From Gallaecimonas kandeliae (GTDB lineage: Bacteria; Pseudomonadota; Gammaproteobacteria; Enterobacterales; Gallaecimonadaceae): DNA of 64,000 bases. Both the position numbers and the translations under genes were made by a program. How positions within the stretch are numbered: position 1 is the first letter of the stretch; each line of letters begins with the position of its first letter. This document shows, in pieces, positions 51,637 to 58,088 of the stretch. The notes beneath the pieces were generated by a model that saw only the letters and a list, made by a program, of their open reading frames with translations, was not told the DNA's origin and searched no databases. Where the stretch lies: contig NZ_CP118480.1 of NCBI RefSeq assembly GCF_030450055.1, positions 2,755,415 through 2,819,414 of the forward strand, read 5' to 3'.

Positions 51637-51667
51637 AAAAAAGCGCGCCTCTGGCGCGCTTTTTTTA
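51637..51667. terminator. Bidirectional terminator between tetR and glnE
   Basis: AAAAAAGCGCGCC-TCT-GGCGCGCTTTTTTT, with A and T runs on both flanks. It lies between the converging ends of tetR and glnE. Confidence 0.93.
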
Positions 51668-54484
51668 TCCCAGCACGGCGTCCCAGAGGGTGCTGACCGC
51701 CGCCCTTTCGGCCTTGAAGGCGTCGTCCGCCACCAGGTTGCCGCCGTCATCCAGGCTCTGGCGGTGCAGCTGCTGGCGCAGCCCTATGTAAGCCTGCTTG
51801 AGGGTCTCGGCCTGGTCGGGGGTTATGACCTCGGCCTCGGCCAGGGCGTCCAGTTGGCGGATGTTGTCGCTGAAGGTCAGCAGCCCCGGCTGGTGGCTGG
51901 CCAGCAGCCAGTACTGGACCAGGAACTCGATGTCGGTGATGCCGCCCCTGCCCTGCTTGAGGTCGAACCGGCCGTTGCCGGACTTGTCCAGATGTAAGCG
52001 CATCTTGTCACGCATGGCCCGCACTTCCTCCTTGAGCTGCTGCCCCTCGCGGGCCTGGCACAGGGCCCCCAAGCGAATAGAGGCAAAGCGCTGGCGCAAG
52101 GCCTCATCCCCCAGCACGGCTCTTGCCCGCACCAGGGCCTGGTGTTCCCAGAGCCAGGCCTCCTGCTGCTGGTACTGCTCGAAGCTCGCCAGGGTGGTGA
52201 CCAGCAGACCTGAGGCGCCGGAGGGGCGCAGCCGCATGTCGATCTCATAGAGCACGCCGCCCAAGGTGCGGGTGGCCAGCCAGTGGGTCAGCCGCTGCAC
52301 CAGTTTGAGGTAGAACTCCCGTACCGTGATGGCCCTCTGGCCGTCGGTGAGGGCGTTGGCCTGCTCCTCGTCGAGATCGGTGAGGAACACCAGGTCCAGA
52401 TCCGAGCTGTAGCCGAGCTCCAGGCCCCCCAACTTGCCGTAGGCCACCACCAGCAGGCCTGTGTGGTAAGGGTCCAGCCCCGGCGGCTGGCCGTGGCGGC
52501 GGGCCACATCCTGCCAGGCCAGAGGCAGGCAGGTGGCCAGCAGCGTCTCGGCGAGGCAGGTCAGGTGATCGCTGACCTTCATCAGCGGCAGCACCCCAGT
52601 GACGTCGGCGGCGGCGATGCGCAGCGTCTGGGCCGCCTTGAACTGGCGCAGCGCCTCCATCTGCCCTTCCACATCGTCGGGCTCGATGCGCAGCAGGAAG
52701 CGGCGCAGCTCCCCCTCGTAGGCGTCCAGGGGCGGCGGCGAGTAGAGGTGGCGAGGGTCGATAAGTTCGTCCAGCAGTATCGGCATCTGGGTCAGGCGCT
52801 CGGCGATGAAGGCAGAGGCCCCCATCAGCCGCACCAGCTGGCGCCTGGCGCCGGGGTTTTCCAAAAGCAGCTCCAGGTAAACGGTGCGGCTGGCCACCTG
52901 TTCCAACAGCCGGCCCAGGCGCGCCAGGGTGCGCTGGGGCTCGGGCTCGTCCTGCAGGGCCAGCAGCAGCTGCGGTAGCAGCTTGTCCAGCTGCTTGCGG
53001 CCCCGCTCCCCCATGGGCTTGCGCCCCAGTTGCTGGCGCAGGGCAAAGAGGCCGGGGGCCAGAGCCGGCGCCAGGCCAACTTCCGCCAGCAGGCCGGCCA
53101 GCTCTTCTTCGGACCAGTCCGCCAGCGCCAGGCTGCGCAGGGCCTGGGGCAGCTCGTCCTCGTTTTCCTCTTCGCTGATCAGCTCCCGGAACAGCCTGTG
53201 GACGAAGGCCTGGTGGCCGGCCAGGGCGGCCAGGAAATCGCTGTAGCCGGGGAAGCCCTGCATGGCGGCGAGGCGGGCCCTGTCCAGGGGGCTTTCGGGC
53301 AATGTCTGGGTCTGTTCGTCGGCGATGGCCTGGAGGTTGTTCTCGGCGCTACGCAGGAAGAGGTAGCTGTCGCGCAGCTGCACCGTCTCCTCTTCGGTCA
53401 TGACCCCCAGTTTGGGCAGCAGGGCCAGCACCGCCAGCAGGGACGGGGTGCGCAGCGCCGGCTCACGGCCGCCGCGGATGAGCTGGAACACCTGCACCAG
53501 GAACTCCACCTCGCGGATGCCGCCCGGGCCCAGCTTGATGTTGTCCTTGAGGCCACGGCGGCGCACCTCGGCCTCGATGAGCCGCTTCATGTCCCGCAGG
53601 GAGTTGATGGCCGAATAATCGAGGTAGCGGCGGTAGACGAAGGGCCGCAGCAGCTGCTCCAGCTCCTCGCCGTAACCGGCGCCACCGCCCATGAGCCGGC
53701 CCTTGACCATGGCGTAGCGCTCCCACTCCCGGCCCTGGGACTGGTAGTAATCCTCCAGCGCCGAGAAGGACAACACCAGGGGGCCCGAATCGCCGAAGGG
53801 CCTCAGCCGCATGTCCACCCGGTAGACGAAGCCGTCCTCGGTGACGGCGTCCAGCAGGGCGATGAGTTTCTGGCCGAGGCGCACGAAGAACTCATGGTTG
53901 TCCATCTCGCGGCGCCCGCCCCGGGTCTCACCGCTGCGGGGGTAGACGAAGATGAGGTCGATGTCGGAGGAAAAGTTGAGCTCGCCGCCCCCCAGCTTGC
54001 CCATGCCCAGCACCAGCAGCGGCACGGCATTGCCGTCTTCGTCGCAGGGGGTGCCGCGCAGGGCGCATTGCTGGATATAGAGCCAGTCTCGGGCGGCGAC
54101 GATCAGGCCTTCGGCCAGGGCGGACAGGCAGCGCAGCCTGGCCTCTTCCGCAATTTCCCCCAGGGCGCCGAGCAGGGCCAGGGCTGCGAGCTTGCGGTTG
54201 CGCCATTGGCGCAGCGCCGCCATGGCCTCGGCCTCGCTGCGCAGCTCCCCCAGTTCCGGCTGCCAGGGGCCGGCCATCAGGGTCTCGGCGCTGTCCGCCA
54301 ACAAAGGCGCAAGCCACTGCGGGTGGCGCAGCAGCTGGGCCAGCAGGAAGTCGGAACAGGCCAGGCCCCGGCGCAGCCGGGCCTGGGCCTTTTCGTCGAG
54401 GCCGTCGAGGCAATGGGGGTGGCGTTCGCTGAGGGTCGCCAGGGCCTTGTCGGCCTGGTGCGACAGCAGGGTCTGGGTGGACAT
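51665..54484 (-). CDS. glnE: Glutamine synthetase adenylyltransferase/removase
   Basis: 939-aa bifunctional enzyme that adenylylates glutamine synthetase when nitrogen is plentiful and removes the AMP when scarce, under PII control. The N-terminal (deadenylylating) nucleotidyltransferase has GMGKLGGGELNFSSDIDLIF at about 158-177, and the C-terminal (adenylylating) one has YGKLGGLELGYSSDLDLVFL at about 685-704. RVDMRLRPFGDSGPLV and EIDMRLRPSGASGLLV follow each. E. coli GlnE is 946 aa. No strong ribosome site precedes ATG 54484. It shares its 5' region with the divergent YjfI cassette. Confidence 0.97.
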   Translation of the reverse strand: MSTQTLLSHQADKALATLSERHPHCLDGLDEKAQARLRRGLACSDFLLAQLLRHPQWLAPLLADSAETLMAGPWQPELGELRSEAEAMAALRQWRNRKLAALALLGALGEIAEEARLRCLSALAEGLIVAARDWLYIQQCALRGTPCDEDGNAVPLLVLGMGKLGGGELNFSSDIDLIFVYPRSGETRGGRREMDNHEFFVRLGQKLIALLDAVTEDGFVYRVDMRLRPFGDSGPLVLSFSALEDYYQSQGREWERYAMVKGRLMGGGAGYGEELEQLLRPFVYRRYLDYSAINSLRDMKRLIEAEVRRRGLKDNIKLGPGGIREVEFLVQVFQLIRGGREPALRTPSLLAVLALLPKLGVMTEEETVQLRDSYLFLRSAENNLQAIADEQTQTLPESPLDRARLAAMQGFPGYSDFLAALAGHQAFVHRLFRELISEEENEDELPQALRSLALADWSEEELAGLLAEVGLAPALAPGLFALRQQLGRKPMGERGRKQLDKLLPQLLLALQDEPEPQRTLARLGRLLEQVASRTVYLELLLENPGARRQLVRLMGASAFIAERLTQMPILLDELIDPRHLYSPPPLDAYEGELRRFLLRIEPDDVEGQMEALRQFKAAQTLRIAAADVTGVLPLMKVSDHLTCLAETLLATCLPLAWQDVARRHGQPPGLDPYHTGLLVVAYGKLGGLELGYSSDLDLVFLTDLDEEQANALTDGQRAITVREFYLKLVQRLTHWLATRTLGGVLYEIDMRLRPSGASGLLVTTLASFEQYQQQEAWLWEHQALVRARAVLGDEALRQRFASIRLGALCQAREGQQLKEEVRAMRDKMRLHLDKSGNGRFDLKQGRGGITDIEFLVQYWLLASHQPGLLTFSDNIRQLDALAEAEVITPDQAETLKQAYIGLRQQLHRQSLDDGGNLVADDAFKAERAAVSTLWDAVLG

Positions 54485-54542
54485 ATTATGTCAAATCTGC
54501 TAGACAAGGGACATCCCGAGCATAAAGCCCAAAGGCCCCGCA

Positions 54543-54980
54543 GTGCCAGCCCAGACCGCCAATTCCATCGACACCATAGCCCGGCATCTCAATGCCTTGG
54601 GCGCCGCCAGCAGCACCGGCTGCCGTTTCGACTGCACCCCCATCAGCGGCGAGGTCGAAGTGCTGCAGATAGTGGTGCAGGACAGGGAAGAGATCCCCAT
54701 CTTCCTGACGGTGGCCGAAGAGCAGATCCTGGTGATGAGCTTCCTCTGGGACGAGGCCGAGGTGAAGCCACAGATGCGGCTGTCGATGCTGGAGACCATG
54801 CTCGAGCTCAACATCCCCATGCCCCTCTCCGCCTTCGCCAAGATGGGGGACCGCTACGTGATCTTCGGGGCCCTGTCGGTCCACTCCAGCCTCTTCGACA
54901 TAGAGCACGAACTGGTGGTGCTGTCCGACAACACCCTCGACATCCTCGACGACATGAACCACTTCCTGGAGGCGCTATGA
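54543..54980 (+). CDS. YjfI-like DUF2170 protein
   Basis: 145 aa, GTG start at 54543 with AAAGG 7 nt upstream. The DUF2170 pattern is clear: a hydrophobic EVEVLQIVVQDREEIPIFLTVAEEQILV segment (in parts), SMLETMLELNIPMPLSAFAKMGDRYVIFGALS, and LFDIEHELVVLSDNTLDILDDM. In E. coli the relative YjfI precedes a PspA-like gene (yjfJ) in a membrane-stress type locus; its function is unknown. It is the first of four plus-strand genes that overlap by 4 nt or touch, and it diverges from glnE by 58 bp. Confidence 0.85.
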   Translation: MPAQTANSIDTIARHLNALGAASSTGCRFDCTPISGEVEVLQIVVQDREEIPIFLTVAEEQILVMSFLWDEAEVKPQMRLSMLETMLELNIPMPLSAFAKMGDRYVIFGALSVHSSLFDIEHELVVLSDNTLDILDDMNHFLEAL

Positions 54981-55525
54981 CCTTGCTCAGCCGGCGTCAC
55001 TCCCCGACACAGCGCCAGGCCACCAAGGAGGCCCTGACCCAGGTGGAAGCGGAGTTGGCGCAACAGCAGCCCCACCAGGCCAGCTGGCAAGGGGCCCTGG
55101 CCCACCTGGTCCAGCAGCAGCAAGGGTTGGCCCTTGAAGCCGGGCAGCAGGAAGCCCACCTCAAGGCTTTGCTGGCCGATGACGCCCCCGGCACCCTGGC
55201 CCAGGCGGAGCTGCTGGCGGCCCTGGAAAACCAGCTGCAGGACAACCACCGGCAACAGCAGGTGCTGAAGGACAAGCTGGAGGCCTGCCTGCAGCTGGAG
55301 CGCCGCCAGGTGGATCTGCGCCGCCAGCTGAGCCTCTTGGACGCCACCGAAGGGCTGGAGAAGATGGTGGCCACCTTGGAGCCCGCCTGGCCGGGCCGCA
55401 AGGACTCGGTGCAGGCCACCTTGCAGGCCATCAGGGCCCGCGAGGCCAGCCGTCCCTTGGCCCAGCCACAGCCCCCAGCCAGCGCCGCCTCTGTGCTGGC
55501 CCGCCTCAAGGGGGAGCGGCCTTGA
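54977..55525 (+). CDS. Coiled-coil protein, possibly a divergent PspA/IM30 relative
   Basis: 182 aa, Gln- and Leu-rich and almost entirely helical (residues about 10-150), with heptad patterns such as LAALENQLQDNHRQQQVLKDKLEA. The end SAASVLARLKGERP resembles the C-terminus of YjfJ-type PspA proteins, and in many genomes a PspA homologue occupies exactly this place after a YjfI gene. Overall similarity to PspA is too weak to be sure. ATG 54977 overlaps the YjfI stop (ATGA). Inferred role: membrane-associated scaffold; low certainty. Confidence 0.7.
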   Translation: MTLLSRRHSPTQRQATKEALTQVEAELAQQQPHQASWQGALAHLVQQQQGLALEAGQQEAHLKALLADDAPGTLAQAELLAALENQLQDNHRQQQVLKDKLEACLQLERRQVDLRRQLSLLDATEGLEKMVATLEPAWPGRKDSVQATLQAIRAREASRPLAQPQPPASAASVLARLKGERP

Positions 55526-55854
55526 CCAAGAAACTGCAGGAAAAATGGGCCTCCTCCATCGCCGCCATGAAGGCGGTGCAGGTGGCCTTCGATCTGGACA
55601 GCCGCTTCCAGTACGCCATCCGCCTGGCGGCCCTCAAGGAAGGGCTGAGCCCCTCGGATCAGATCCGCACCATGCTGGATCTGCCCGTCACCACCAGGCC
55701 CAAGCGCCCCAGGCTGACCGTCACCCTGAGCGGCGAAGATTACGAACGCCTGGCCAGGCGTTACGGCCTAGCCGCCGACGCCCAATTGGAAATCAAGAAG
55801 AAGGTGATGCAAGAATTGATGGAGCAGGCCGACCTGCTGCTGAAGGACAGCTAG
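55522..55854 (+). CDS. Small unknown protein of the YjfI/channel cassette
   Basis: 110 aa, TTG start overlapping the previous stop (TTGA) with GGGGGAG 5 nt before it, so it is translationally coupled. I do not recognise the family. The protein is soluble, basic in the middle (TRPKRPRLTVTLSG), and predicted mostly helical. The segment RPRLTVTLSGEDYERLARRYGL followed by KKKVMQELMEQ (in parts) looks somewhat like a ribbon-helix-helix DNA-binding fold. The cassette position suggests a partner of the coiled-coil protein or channel, or a local regulator. Confidence 0.75.
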   Translation: MTKKLQEKWASSIAAMKAVQVAFDLDSRFQYAIRLAALKEGLSPSDQIRTMLDLPVTTRPKRPRLTVTLSGEDYERLARRYGLAADAQLEIKKKVMQELMEQADLLLKDS

Positions 55855-55855
55855 C

Positions 55856-56650
55856 GTGAAGACAAACTTGCGGGTTCTGGCGCCGACGCCCATAGAGCTG
55901 GCGATGATGGTGCTGTCGCTGCTGGCGGTGGCGGTGGTGCTGGTATTGCAGTTTGCCCCCCTGGCCGACGATGAGCGCCAGCTGCTGATCATCATCGACA
56001 CCGCCATCTGCGTCATCTTCCTCAGCCGCTTCTTCATCGGCCTGCTCAGGGCCAGGGAGAAATGGCCCTATCTGCGCACCCATTGGATCGATCTGGTGTC
56101 CAGTGTGCCCATGGTGGACATACTGCGCTACGGCCGCCTCTTCCAGGTGATCCGGGTGCTGCGCATCCTGCGCATGGCCAACCAGGTGCTGCGCCAGCTG
56201 CTGCGCGAGAGCGCCAATACGGTGCTGGCCACCATGCTGGTGATACTGGTGGTGGTGGTGGGTGGCAGCTCCATCGCCATCTTGCTGGCCGAAGGAAGCC
56301 AGCCAGGGTCCAACATCAAGACGGCACAAGACGCCCTCTGGTGGGCCCTGGTGACCATCTCCACCGTCGGCTACGGCGATTATTACCCCGTGACCACGGC
56401 CGGGCGCATCATCAGCGCCGTGGTCATCGTCTCAGGGGTGTCGCTGTTCGGTGGCGTGAGCGGCCTGATGGCCTCCAGGTTGCTCAAGGACAGGGAAGAA
56501 GAGGAACTCCAGGCCCGCTCCCTGCAACATCAGGTACTGAGCCTGGAAGAACAGATCAAGGGGCTGAGCGACCAGATAGCCGAGCTCAGCGCCGAACTCA
56601 AGGCCAGTAGGCAACCTGGTTCAGCCCCAACTGACGGGACTGATCCATAG
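55856..56650 (+). CDS. Voltage-gated-type potassium channel with C-terminal coiled coil
   Basis: 264 aa, GTG start with AAGGA 8 nt upstream, one base after the preceding stop codon. Membrane helices begin at about residue 13; an arginine-rich S4-like helix (RYGRLFQVIRVLRILRM, about 93-109) is followed by S5, a pore loop with the selectivity filter TVGYGDYYP (about 170-178), and S6 (IISAVVIVSGVSLFGGVSGLM). The cytosolic tail (about 205-250) is a coiled coil (LSLEEQIKGLSDQIAELSAEL), likely for tetramerisation. No RCK domain is present. The last 53 bp overlap the converging ygiF. Confidence 0.92.
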   Translation: MKTNLRVLAPTPIELAMMVLSLLAVAVVLVLQFAPLADDERQLLIIIDTAICVIFLSRFFIGLLRAREKWPYLRTHWIDLVSSVPMVDILRYGRLFQVIRVLRILRMANQVLRQLLRESANTVLATMLVILVVVVGGSSIAILLAEGSQPGSNIKTAQDALWWALVTISTVGYGDYYPVTTAGRIISAVVIVSGVSLFGGVSGLMASRLLKDREEEELQARSLQHQVLSLEEQIKGLSDQIAELSAELKASRQPGSAPTDGTDP

Positions 56651-58088
56651 CCAGCACCAGGGACTGGCGCTTGCGGGCCAGCCAACCTTCGAGCTGCTCG
56701 CTGTCTTCCTCGCTGAGATCCAGGCGCGCCGCCAGTTGGGACAGGCCTTCCAGGCGCTTGGCCTCCTCCACACCGAACAGGAAGTCCTGCCACTGTTCCT
56801 GGGCGTTGCCCGCCGCCTCATCCAGGTAGAGGCCGGCGAAGGTGCGGCAGCAGCAGAGATAGCGCTGCACCCGGCTTTCCTGATCCACATAGTCGGCCAG
56901 GGACATGCCCTTGGTGAGGTGGCGCTTGAGCTCGGCAAAGGCCTTGGCCAGCTGGGTGTCGGCAAACCACTTGATGGGCTTGTCCAGTTCCGCCAGGGCC
57001 GGCTTGTCGAGCCGCTCCCGCCAGCGGCCCAGGGCCACGAACTTGATGGCGCTCAGCTTGAGGCGGTTGGCCCGCTCCGAGGCAAAGAGGCGGGTGAAGG
57101 CGGCGATGTCCATCAAACCCTGCTGGCGCAGTTTCGCCTGCTCCAGCAATTCTTCGGCGATGTTGAGCTTCTTGAAGCTGCCGCCCTTGCTCCCCAGCAG
57201 CTTGGCCAGGCGTACCTGGGCTTCGGCCTGGGACAGCTGGTCGGCCAGCCACTGGCACTCCTGGCGCAGCTCGCTGGAGGCCTTGCGGGGCACCAGGCCG
57301 CCGAAGAGGCTCAGCACCTGGCGGAAATACTGGAGCGCCTGGCCGAGAGCCAGCAGCGGTTGCCAGCCCGGCTGGAGCAGGAAGGCGTCTTCGGCTTCCT
57401 GCCACTGGCCAAGGGCCGTGGCCAAGGCCTGTTGCAACACGGCTTCGTTGCTCATCTGGCGGTCGATGACAGGGGACAGGCTCGACAGGCTGAGGGGGCC
57501 CTGGCCCTTGGCCAGCCAGTTGCCGCGGGCGGCCTTGGACAGGCCGAAACACTGGACGCCGTCGATAAGCAGGGGCTCGGCGATGTCGAACAGGCGCTTG
57601 AGATCCTCACCCTGCATCTCCAACTCCAGCTCGCGAATAGGCAGCACCTGGCCGCCGGCCACCACTTCCCCCTGATCCCAGCACAGCTCCACCTGGCCGT
57701 CGGCCAGCAGCACCTTATGGCGTACGAAATCGGTGCTGAAGACCGGCGCCAGCTCGGCCTGGAGGGCGGCAAGGTCCGTGCCCTGGGGCCAGACCTCGGC
57801 GGGGAAGGCGCTGAGATCGGGCCTGTCTCCCAGTACCGGCAGGTTGTATTCGGGCCTGGCCGAGAGGGCGGAGCCGCTCAGGTCGGCCAGCTTCAAGGTC
57901 TGTTCGCGCTCGCCGTCCACTTCTCGGATGCGCAGCCCCATGCGCCAGCCGGCCAAGCGGCCGTCCGGGGTGTCGAAATAGCTATTCTTGAGGTGGCGGG
58001 GCTTGGCGCCCTTCAGCAGCGGCTGGAGCCACTGATCGGTATCGACGGAATCGGCGACGCGGAGCTTGAGTTCGGTTTCGATGGCCAT
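56598..58088 (-). CDS. ygiF: CYTH-CHAD inorganic triphosphatase YgiF
   Basis: 496 aa. The N-terminal CYTH domain (1-200) shows ExExK (IETELKLRV) and strand motifs such as LGDRPDLSAF..., ELELEMQGEDLKRLF and LSKAARG, forming the triphosphate tunnel; it hydrolyses inorganic tripolyphosphate in E. coli. The C-terminal CHAD domain (about 215-490) is helical with conserved His/Arg/Lys positions (for example LFGGLVPRKASSELRQECQWL) that bind polyphosphate. In E. coli ygiF directly precedes glnE; here four plus-strand genes lie between. ATG 58088. Confidence 0.93.
   Translation of the reverse strand: MAIETELKLRVADSVDTDQWLQPLLKGAKPRHLKNSYFDTPDGRLAGWRMGLRIREVDGEREQTLKLADLSGSALSARPEYNLPVLGDRPDLSAFPAEVWPQGTDLAALQAELAPVFSTDFVRHKVLLADGQVELCWDQGEVVAGGQVLPIRELELEMQGEDLKRLFDIAEPLLIDGVQCFGLSKAARGNWLAKGQGPLSLSSLSPVIDRQMSNEAVLQQALATALGQWQEAEDAFLLQPGWQPLLALGQALQYFRQVLSLFGGLVPRKASSELRQECQWLADQLSQAEAQVRLAKLLGSKGGSFKKLNIAEELLEQAKLRQQGLMDIAAFTRLFASERANRLKLSAIKFVALGRWRERLDKPALAELDKPIKWFADTQLAKAFAELKRHLTKGMSLADYVDQESRVQRYLCCCRTFAGLYLDEAAGNAQEQWQDFLFGVEEAKRLEGLSQLAARLDLSEEDSEQLEGWLARKRQSLVLAMDQSRQLGLNQVAYWP

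Follow-up and report, generated by a model that had tools for sequence, protein, structure and literature searches.

A reduced DUF2170/PspA operon in Gallaecimonas kandeliae, its palindromic operator and the candidate repressor P110

What is a compact run of four genes doing between glnE and ygiF, two genes that we take to be adjacent in E. coli? The question is raised by a 64,000-nucleotide stretch of the Gallaecimonas kandeliae genome (RefSeq assembly GCF_030450055.1, contig NZ_CP118480.1, positions 2,755,415 to 2,819,414), called the window here, in which open reading frame (ORF) calls place four plus-strand ORFs between two minus-strand neighbours. They encode a DUF2170 protein, a coiled-coil protein, a protein of 110 amino acids (aa) that we call P110, and a K+ channel. 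We find that this cassette is a reduced descendant of a known DUF2170/PspA operon, neither a new cassette nor a full member of the known type. It lies behind a 13-bp palindrome, GACATANTATGTC, whose numbers across genomes follow P110, and we suggest that P110 acts through it as a repressor. The features on which the argument rests, followed by the two neighbouring genes, are these:

54480..54492: operator palindrome, GACATATTATGTC, a perfect copy that overlaps the glnE start codon
54460..54489, plus strand: weak sigma-70-like promoter, GCGACA-18-TATTAT, with its -10 inside the operator (a consensus match only)
54543..54980, plus strand: DUF2170 protein (YjfI/BacA-type, CesT/Tir-like), 145 aa, GTG start (PF09938, E 9.1e-36)
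54977..55525, plus strand: coiled-coil protein, by hhalign a derived PspA (mini-PspA), 182 aa, ATG start
55522..55854, plus strand: P110, 110 aa, TTG start, proposed as the regulon repressor from its co-occurrence with the operator
55856..56650, plus strand: K+ channel, six-helix type, GTG start (PF00520, 2.6e-20; PF07885, 1.6e-16)
51665..54484, minus strand: glnE, left neighbour (PF03710, 1.5e-164)
56598..58088, minus strand: ygiF (CYTH-CHAD), convergent right neighbour (Pfam CYTH and CHAD)

The four genes are packed closely, with an ATGA overlap between DUF2170 and the coiled-coil gene, a TTGA overlap between the latter and P110, and a gap of 1 nt before the channel, whose 3' end overlaps ygiF by 53 bp. 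In these junctions, in the four start codons and in the strand opposite to both neighbours, the ORF calls and Pfam agree with a preliminary description made from the letters of the sequence. They also agree with its K+ channel that has an S4 segment and no RCK domain: Ion_trans and Ion_trans_2 were matched at the values listed, and no RCK family was matched. PF09938 recognises the DUF2170 protein at 123 bits, against a cut-off of 27.

The ancestry of the cassette can be read within the genus. The same four genes occupy the same site in three of the four other members searched (G001, G002 and G004), and in the fourth, G003, the glnE/ygiF site holds a fuller operon: a lipoprotein, a DUF350 protein (PF03994), a membrane spermidine synthase (PF01564), DUF2170, a 232-aa PspA (PF04012, 1.3e-40), a 215-aa protein, P110 and the K+ channel. 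The four-gene arrangement is therefore more than chance. Set beside that of G003, the window operon consists of the DUF2170-PspA dyad, P110 and the channel; the lipoprotein, DUF350, spermidine synthase and 215-aa genes are absent (the last belongs to a family in which one of three members scanned matched DUF4178, below cut-off). A tree of the glnE N-terminus unites G003 and the four reduced species in one clade (100/100), and a tree of DUF2170 plus P110 groups the reduced species with G003 (92/90). An alternative tree that places the reduced species with the Oceanimonas group was not rejected (p-AU 0.176), which weakens the idea that the two groups were reduced independently and leaves gene deletion inside the genus as the best reading of these data and not the sole one. 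The operator beside glnE has not moved between G003 and the reduced species, which is what a deletion of the genes between operator and DUF2170 would leave. Among the best 80 of 307 relatives, the set to which our neighbourhood counts refer, 12 loci, from Oceanimonas, Zobellella and Oceanisphaera, run from glnE through DUF2170, a short derived PspA and P110 to ygiF, with no channel.

What, then, is the coiled-coil protein that stands in the place of PspA? The preliminary description credited it with only a PspA-like tail and proposed a profile-profile comparison with PspA/IM30. That comparison extends the homology over the whole chain: in hhalign the four genus sequences match 29 PspA sequences end to end over 185 columns (probability 98.1, E 6.6e-14), and eight other profiles from the same loci reach a probability of 14.6 at most against mini-PspA. 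PF04012 gave no match to mini-PspA at E up to 10, and when the whole genome was searched at E up to 1 this locus was again without a match; neither Pfam nor NCBIfam holds a family that scores above cut-off. We conclude from its sequence that this 182-aa protein is a strongly derived PspA that has lost its N-terminal amphipathic helix. Of the 50 residues by which it falls short of the PspA of G003, about 15 are missing close to the N-terminus and about 23 from the linker that leads to the tail. The hydrophobic moment of the first 18 residues is 0.13-0.36 in the four genus mini-PspA proteins; four full-length PspA give 0.44-0.63, and two forms of the Oceanimonas group 0.48-0.52. The C-terminal SAxxVLxRLK tail and a block of invariant residues are kept. 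An AlphaFold2 model, built on an input alignment that held PspA rows, has helices at residues 10-67 and 73-134 and disorder at 1-6 (mean predicted local distance difference test score, pLDDT, 82); its best Foldseek matches are to Vipp1, none of them significant (E 0.085 at best). Mini-PspA has diverged quickly, with 42-54% identity between congeners, versus 78-89% for DUF2170 and 81-88% for P110. Identity of the G003 PspA with ten full-length PspA from other families is 70-77%, and with two short Oceanimonas-group forms 31-32%. A canonical pspF-pspA-pspC locus is intact elsewhere in the G. kandeliae genome (L070 6228-8796, at 2.12-2.13 Mb), with NCBIfam equivalogs above cut-off for all three genes.

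We also considered, as a rule, that loss of the 215-aa gene goes with a shortened PspA. The link holds in 80 of 80 loci, 68 having the 215-aa gene and a PspA of 227-237 aa, and 12 lacking it and having a short derived PspA. However, six loci with other surroundings that are without the 215-aa gene keep a PspA of normal length (L053, L056, L057, L059, L068 and L261), and because of these exceptions, and because the 12 loci and the four genus members amount to only two clades, we do not treat the link as a rule.

How is the operon controlled? When dyads were listed between glnE and the first operon gene, GACATANTATGTC was present in 55 of 77 regions; in the window it is perfect at 54480-54492 and is the sole match at up to two mismatches in the 64 kb. 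Of 109 regions upstream of DUF2170, 101 carry it with no more than one mismatch and 86 carry it perfectly; at least three pairs among the 109 share a genome, and a contig end accounts for one of the eight regions without it. In 87 of the 109 there are two copies, 30-39 bp apart, and shuffled regions gave 0 matches in 10 rounds. Such a pair, spaced by about 35 bp, is the usual arrangement ahead of P110 operons, and the operator is found there in many families. All five genus members have the same 13 bp, with flanks that are partly alike in the four reduced species and diverged in G003. The operator is also present where glnE was not seen beside the operon (L047, L056, L057, L059 and L068).

Within the order, 91 of 295 genomes and 20 of 99 genera carry P110, the 91 including one probably false member (G271, E 0.006); a sample of 369 genomes from the class has it in 13, of which 11 fall outside the order. 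DUF2170 and PspA lie beside it in 80/80 loci, the 215-aa gene in 68/80, and the spermidine synthase, DUF350 and lipoprotein genes in 65/80. Each of the 91 P110 genomes also encodes a DUF2170 protein, adjacent or not, and 35 of 126 DUF2170 genomes have no P110 match; P110 thus accompanies one branch of the DUF2170-PspA systems. The operator follows the same branch. Two or more perfect sites were seen in 63 of the 91 genomes with P110 versus 3 of 204 without it, and, outside families f12 and f25, in 62 of 63 P110 genomes; a control pattern gave 0-1 matches per genome. Restricting the comparison to genomes with DUF2170 leaves the difference in place (63/91 with P110 versus 2/35 without), and in one of the two exceptions, G110, the contig ends just after PspA, with paired sites upstream. 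Fisher tests on these counts ignore phylogeny, and comparisons within families and outside the order are safer. Within f7, seven P110 genomes carry 2-7 sites and 16 genomes in which P110 is absent or doubtful carry 0-1; within f8, five P110 genomes carry two sites each and 18 without P110 carry none. Outside the order, nine of the 11 P110 loci have DUF2170, seven of the nine have a site at up to one mismatch upstream, and two more carry a pair of CCCATANTATGTC. Operator counts track P110, not DUF2170.

A different setting for the same pair of genes is seen at L053, L056, L057, L059, L068 and L263, where DUF2170-P110 lies near a DUF3686 ATPase and uncharacterised partners, in some cases with a rhomboid protease. 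PspA is also present at the first five of these loci and none was detected at L263. The same operator lies upstream of L056, L057, L059, L068 and L263, and L053 has no upstream sequence.

The position of the palindrome bears on how it might work. At 80 of 87 loci that have a perfect site the first copy is preceded by TT, which completes TTGACA, the consensus -35 (79 of 85 if the window and one identical region are removed), and a -10-like hexamer matching at 4 of 6 positions follows 16-18 bp beyond in 75 of 87, a score of at least 4 being reached by 24% of shuffles. The second copy follows the first about 35 bp further downstream. At htpX the site falls exactly 14 bp after CTTGA, where the -10 would be, in 11 of 11 genomes; CTTGAA is a heat-shock -35. 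The promoter-like match in the window agrees at 9 of 12 consensus positions, with 0.2 such matches expected. We argue for repression because the operator overlaps these promoter elements.

Which other genes might share this control? We read 52 site loci away from the P110 operon in 14 genomes, five of the genus and nine chosen among P110 genomes with several sites, and assigned the neighbouring families by Pfam on examples; for HtpX, QmcA and NhaA the names are in part what we take these proteins to be. A gene for HtpX stands beside the operator in 11 of the 14 genomes, NfeD in six with a QmcA-like SPFH gene in one more, NhaA in four, YqiJ in three, and a prohibitin-like SPFH gene and AIM24 in two each; a classic pspA and a second YjfJ-type pspA were each seen in one genome. 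Modelled families account for 37 of the 52 loci, a figure that is a description and not a test, the models having been built from the same loci; the tally leaves out one further site, L260. G001, G002 and G004 have exactly two perfect sites, at the P110 operon and at htpX; the window genome adds a third, which lies within an integron-like repeat. If one mismatch is allowed, this genome has 11 sites versus 0 for the control pattern; because nine of them, one perfect, sit in dispersed repeats, we count its regulon as the operon and htpX only. The preliminary description had surmised a membrane-stress or membrane-potential module, and the membrane-stress part of that idea has gained ground: the ancestor of the operon was of the DUF2170-PspA kind, its operator recurs at htpX and, among relatives, at SPFH/NfeD genes and nhaA, and many of the genes linked to sites belong to membrane stress.

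The dispersed repeats form two related sets (L156, L236-L243) of about 300 bp, with different small genes after each copy and a palindrome with one mismatch; a copy at L156, next to an integron-type integrase ORF (named by eye), has a perfect palindrome. These repeats, all outside the window, resemble the recombination-site regions of integrons. In Shewanella and f13 genomes, small proteins are encoded behind the operator (L166 1072-1431, L229 1419-2006 and L195 1569-1862). None of the three matched a family in NCBIfam, nor did the L166 protein in Pfam, and we regard them as candidates for new envelope-stress genes.

How could these parts work together? We consider it likely that the cassette is a pared-down DUF2170/PspA membrane-stress operon in which P110 represses the palindrome-linked genes and DUF2170-PspA forms the sensing side. 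P110, as a small DNA-binding protein, would repress its own operon and membrane-protection genes through copies of GACATANTATGTC that lie across core promoters. When PspA, with DUF2170 as its chaperone, engages a damaged or depolarised membrane, P110 would leave the promoters, so that the K+ channel and HtpX are made, and in relatives also SPFH/NfeD, NhaA and polyamine genes; a flow of K+ through the channel might contribute to restoring the membrane potential. The genus would have lost the lipoprotein, DUF350, spermidine synthase and 215-aa genes as its regulon shrank to the operon and htpX, and PspA would have shed its membrane-inserting N-terminal helix, as if only a signalling role, served by hairpin and tail, were still needed. 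The canonical pspF-pspA-pspC locus could do the membrane repair. Since a PspA without a membrane helix has been kept beside DUF2170 and P110, signalling may be the role that persists after remodelling is lost. An autorepressor is the best-fitting reading of P110 because of the promoter geometry, the co-occurrence with the operator and its place inside the operon. The preliminary description noted neither the operator nor this probable regulatory role of P110.

Several observations weigh against this reading. No family in Pfam or NCBIfam, ribbon-helix-helix (RHH) families included, reaches its cut-off with P110, and its commonest weak hit, in 15 of 55 members, is Phage_RB18_ORF43, a phage family of unknown role. 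Foldseek gave no significant match for P110, and its two halves show no clear internal repeat (probability 29). The window operon carries one site, not two; at least one perfect site is present in 18 of 204 genomes without P110, as well as in 68 of 91 with it; 15 of the 52 site loci match none of the modelled families; and in G026, P110 does not adjoin DUF2170 or PspA. In family f12 (Psychromonadaceae-type, placed by the glnE tree), 21 of 22 P110 genomes have no perfect site, although variants GACATATAATGAC and GACATTNAATGTC stand at the operon itself in the genomes looked at, and each of six f12 genomes tested has one copy of GACATTNAATGTC, at the operon wherever compared. The f12 genomes and the missing DNA-binding family would fit a palindrome that serves some other, unlinked regulator of the operon and htpX, with P110 as a structural or adaptor protein of the PspA complex. 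We think this unlikely, since the sites follow P110 over DUF2170, also inside f7 and f8 and outside the order, with the contig of G110, one of the two exceptions, ending just after PspA, and since some of the weak P110 hits are to RHH-type families: 9 of 55 members match a NikA-like family (best E 0.0069), and RHH_1 and FitA-like are matched by one each, all below cut-off. Among ten divergent members, two gave a NikA-like hit, again below cut-off. A search of PDB sequences with P110 found nothing, and its AlphaFold2 model (mean pLDDT 78) renders the expected strand as a helix, at pLDDT below 50. On balance the fold of P110 is likely to be RHH.

The channel raises two further possibilities. Its sequence reads as having the features of a voltage-gated K+ channel, a regular Arg-rich S4 and a TVGYGD-type filter (RYGRLFQVIRVLRILR and TISTVGYGDYYP), and weak family hits make its C-terminus coiled-coil-like. 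The survey of DUF2170 neighbourhoods that the preliminary description proposed did find a recurring association, a channel directly following P110 in 39 of 80 loci, and outside the order a channel lies beside P110 in 4 of 11 loci, with weak scores. This recurrence, the coiled-coil-like C-terminus and the tight junctions would suit a physical complex where the channel is anchored or gated by the coiled coil, close to the earlier proposals of a channel linked to a PspA-like scaffold and of a fixed stoichiometry. Neither proposal drew support from the survey, and such a complex seems to us somewhat less likely again: no channel was found in 41 of the 80 DUF2170-PspA-P110 core loci, the slot holds proteins of two quite different sizes (151-183 aa or 264-313 aa), and the coiled coil is probably the PspA hairpin, there with or without a channel. 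In Colwellia and Thalassotalea (L074, L086 and similar loci) the slot after P110 is occupied by a short channel-like protein of 151-183 aa. Least probable of all, in our view, is that the cassette is decaying gene by gene and that the 182-aa gene is a functionless relic of PspA. It has four genes fewer than G003, and the low identity of mini-PspA between congeners, beside that of DUF2170 and P110, would agree with decay. However, the open frame persists in four species with the invariant block and the C-terminal tail, the operator is unchanged in all five genus members, and Oceanimonas, Zobellella and Oceanisphaera also keep a short derived PspA in the same place.

The reading of P110 as a repressor has parallels in known systems. 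In the canonical phage-shock (Psp) system PspA inhibits PspF, so that there too, as proposed for the window operon, PspA is associated with its own transcriptional switch; the canonical switch is a sigma-54 activator, whereas the one proposed here is a small repressor. RHH autorepressors such as CopG, NikA and TraY are small proteins encoded in the operons that they control, with short palindromic operators over the promoter. P110 resembles them in being a small protein in the operon proposed as its target, with a palindrome over the promoter, but differs in its lack of a significant family match and in sites that form a genome-wide regulon.

The operon type itself is already known. In the sections consulted here, Ravi et al. 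2024 (PMC11237479) describe, as a second major group, a DUF2170/CesT-Tir-PspA operon with a spermine-synthase-like protein, some of whose operons end in an RHH transcription factor, which in our reading P110 fits. The operon of G003 has the same set as this group (spermidine-synthase/transmembrane protein, DUF350, lipoprotein, DUF2170, PspA and a DUF4178-type protein), whereas in the window operon four of these genes are absent and PspA is stripped down. Those sections describe no operator, regulon or K+ channel for the second group, and a ligand-sensing channel for the third. E. coli yjfIJKL and P. aeruginosa bacABCDEF likewise have DUF2170 beside a PspA homologue, with membrane or stress phenotypes, and the portions of the two reports at hand (PMC12492005, PMC10948618) describe no P110 or such palindrome; a sigma-54 site has been proposed upstream of bacA (PMC12492005, PMC10948618). 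In the same portions, Bac proteins accumulate in a P. aeruginosa bacA mutant, from which the authors infer negative control of the operon by the DUF2170 protein, and the DUF2170 crystal structure resembles type III secretion system chaperones (PMC10948618); yjfIJKL is raised in heat-adapted E. coli strains, which is put down to a promoter mutation (PMC12492005). Our searches of the open-access literature turned up no description of the operator, its association with P110 or the regulon, and it is these that are new.

A defined operator, a candidate repressor and candidate co-regulated genes make the control of DUF2170/PspA (YjfI/YjfJ-type) systems directly testable, and bring together PspA, SPFH/NfeD, HtpX, Na+/H+ exchange and K+ flux, as a rule separate fields of study. 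The natural mini-PspA likewise offers a way to separate the signalling activity of PspA from its membrane-remodelling activity. More tentatively, and with the balance leaning somewhat the other way, P110 could be the master repressor of an undescribed gammaproteobacterial membrane-stress regulon that is fed by DUF2170-PspA and embraces PspA, SPFH/NfeD, HtpX, NhaA, AIM24, the K+ channel and polyamine enzymes, with the PspA of this genus stripped to its signalling part. If so, it would be a second phage-shock switch, one built on a repressor, and PspA sensing would have been separated from membrane remodelling in this genus.

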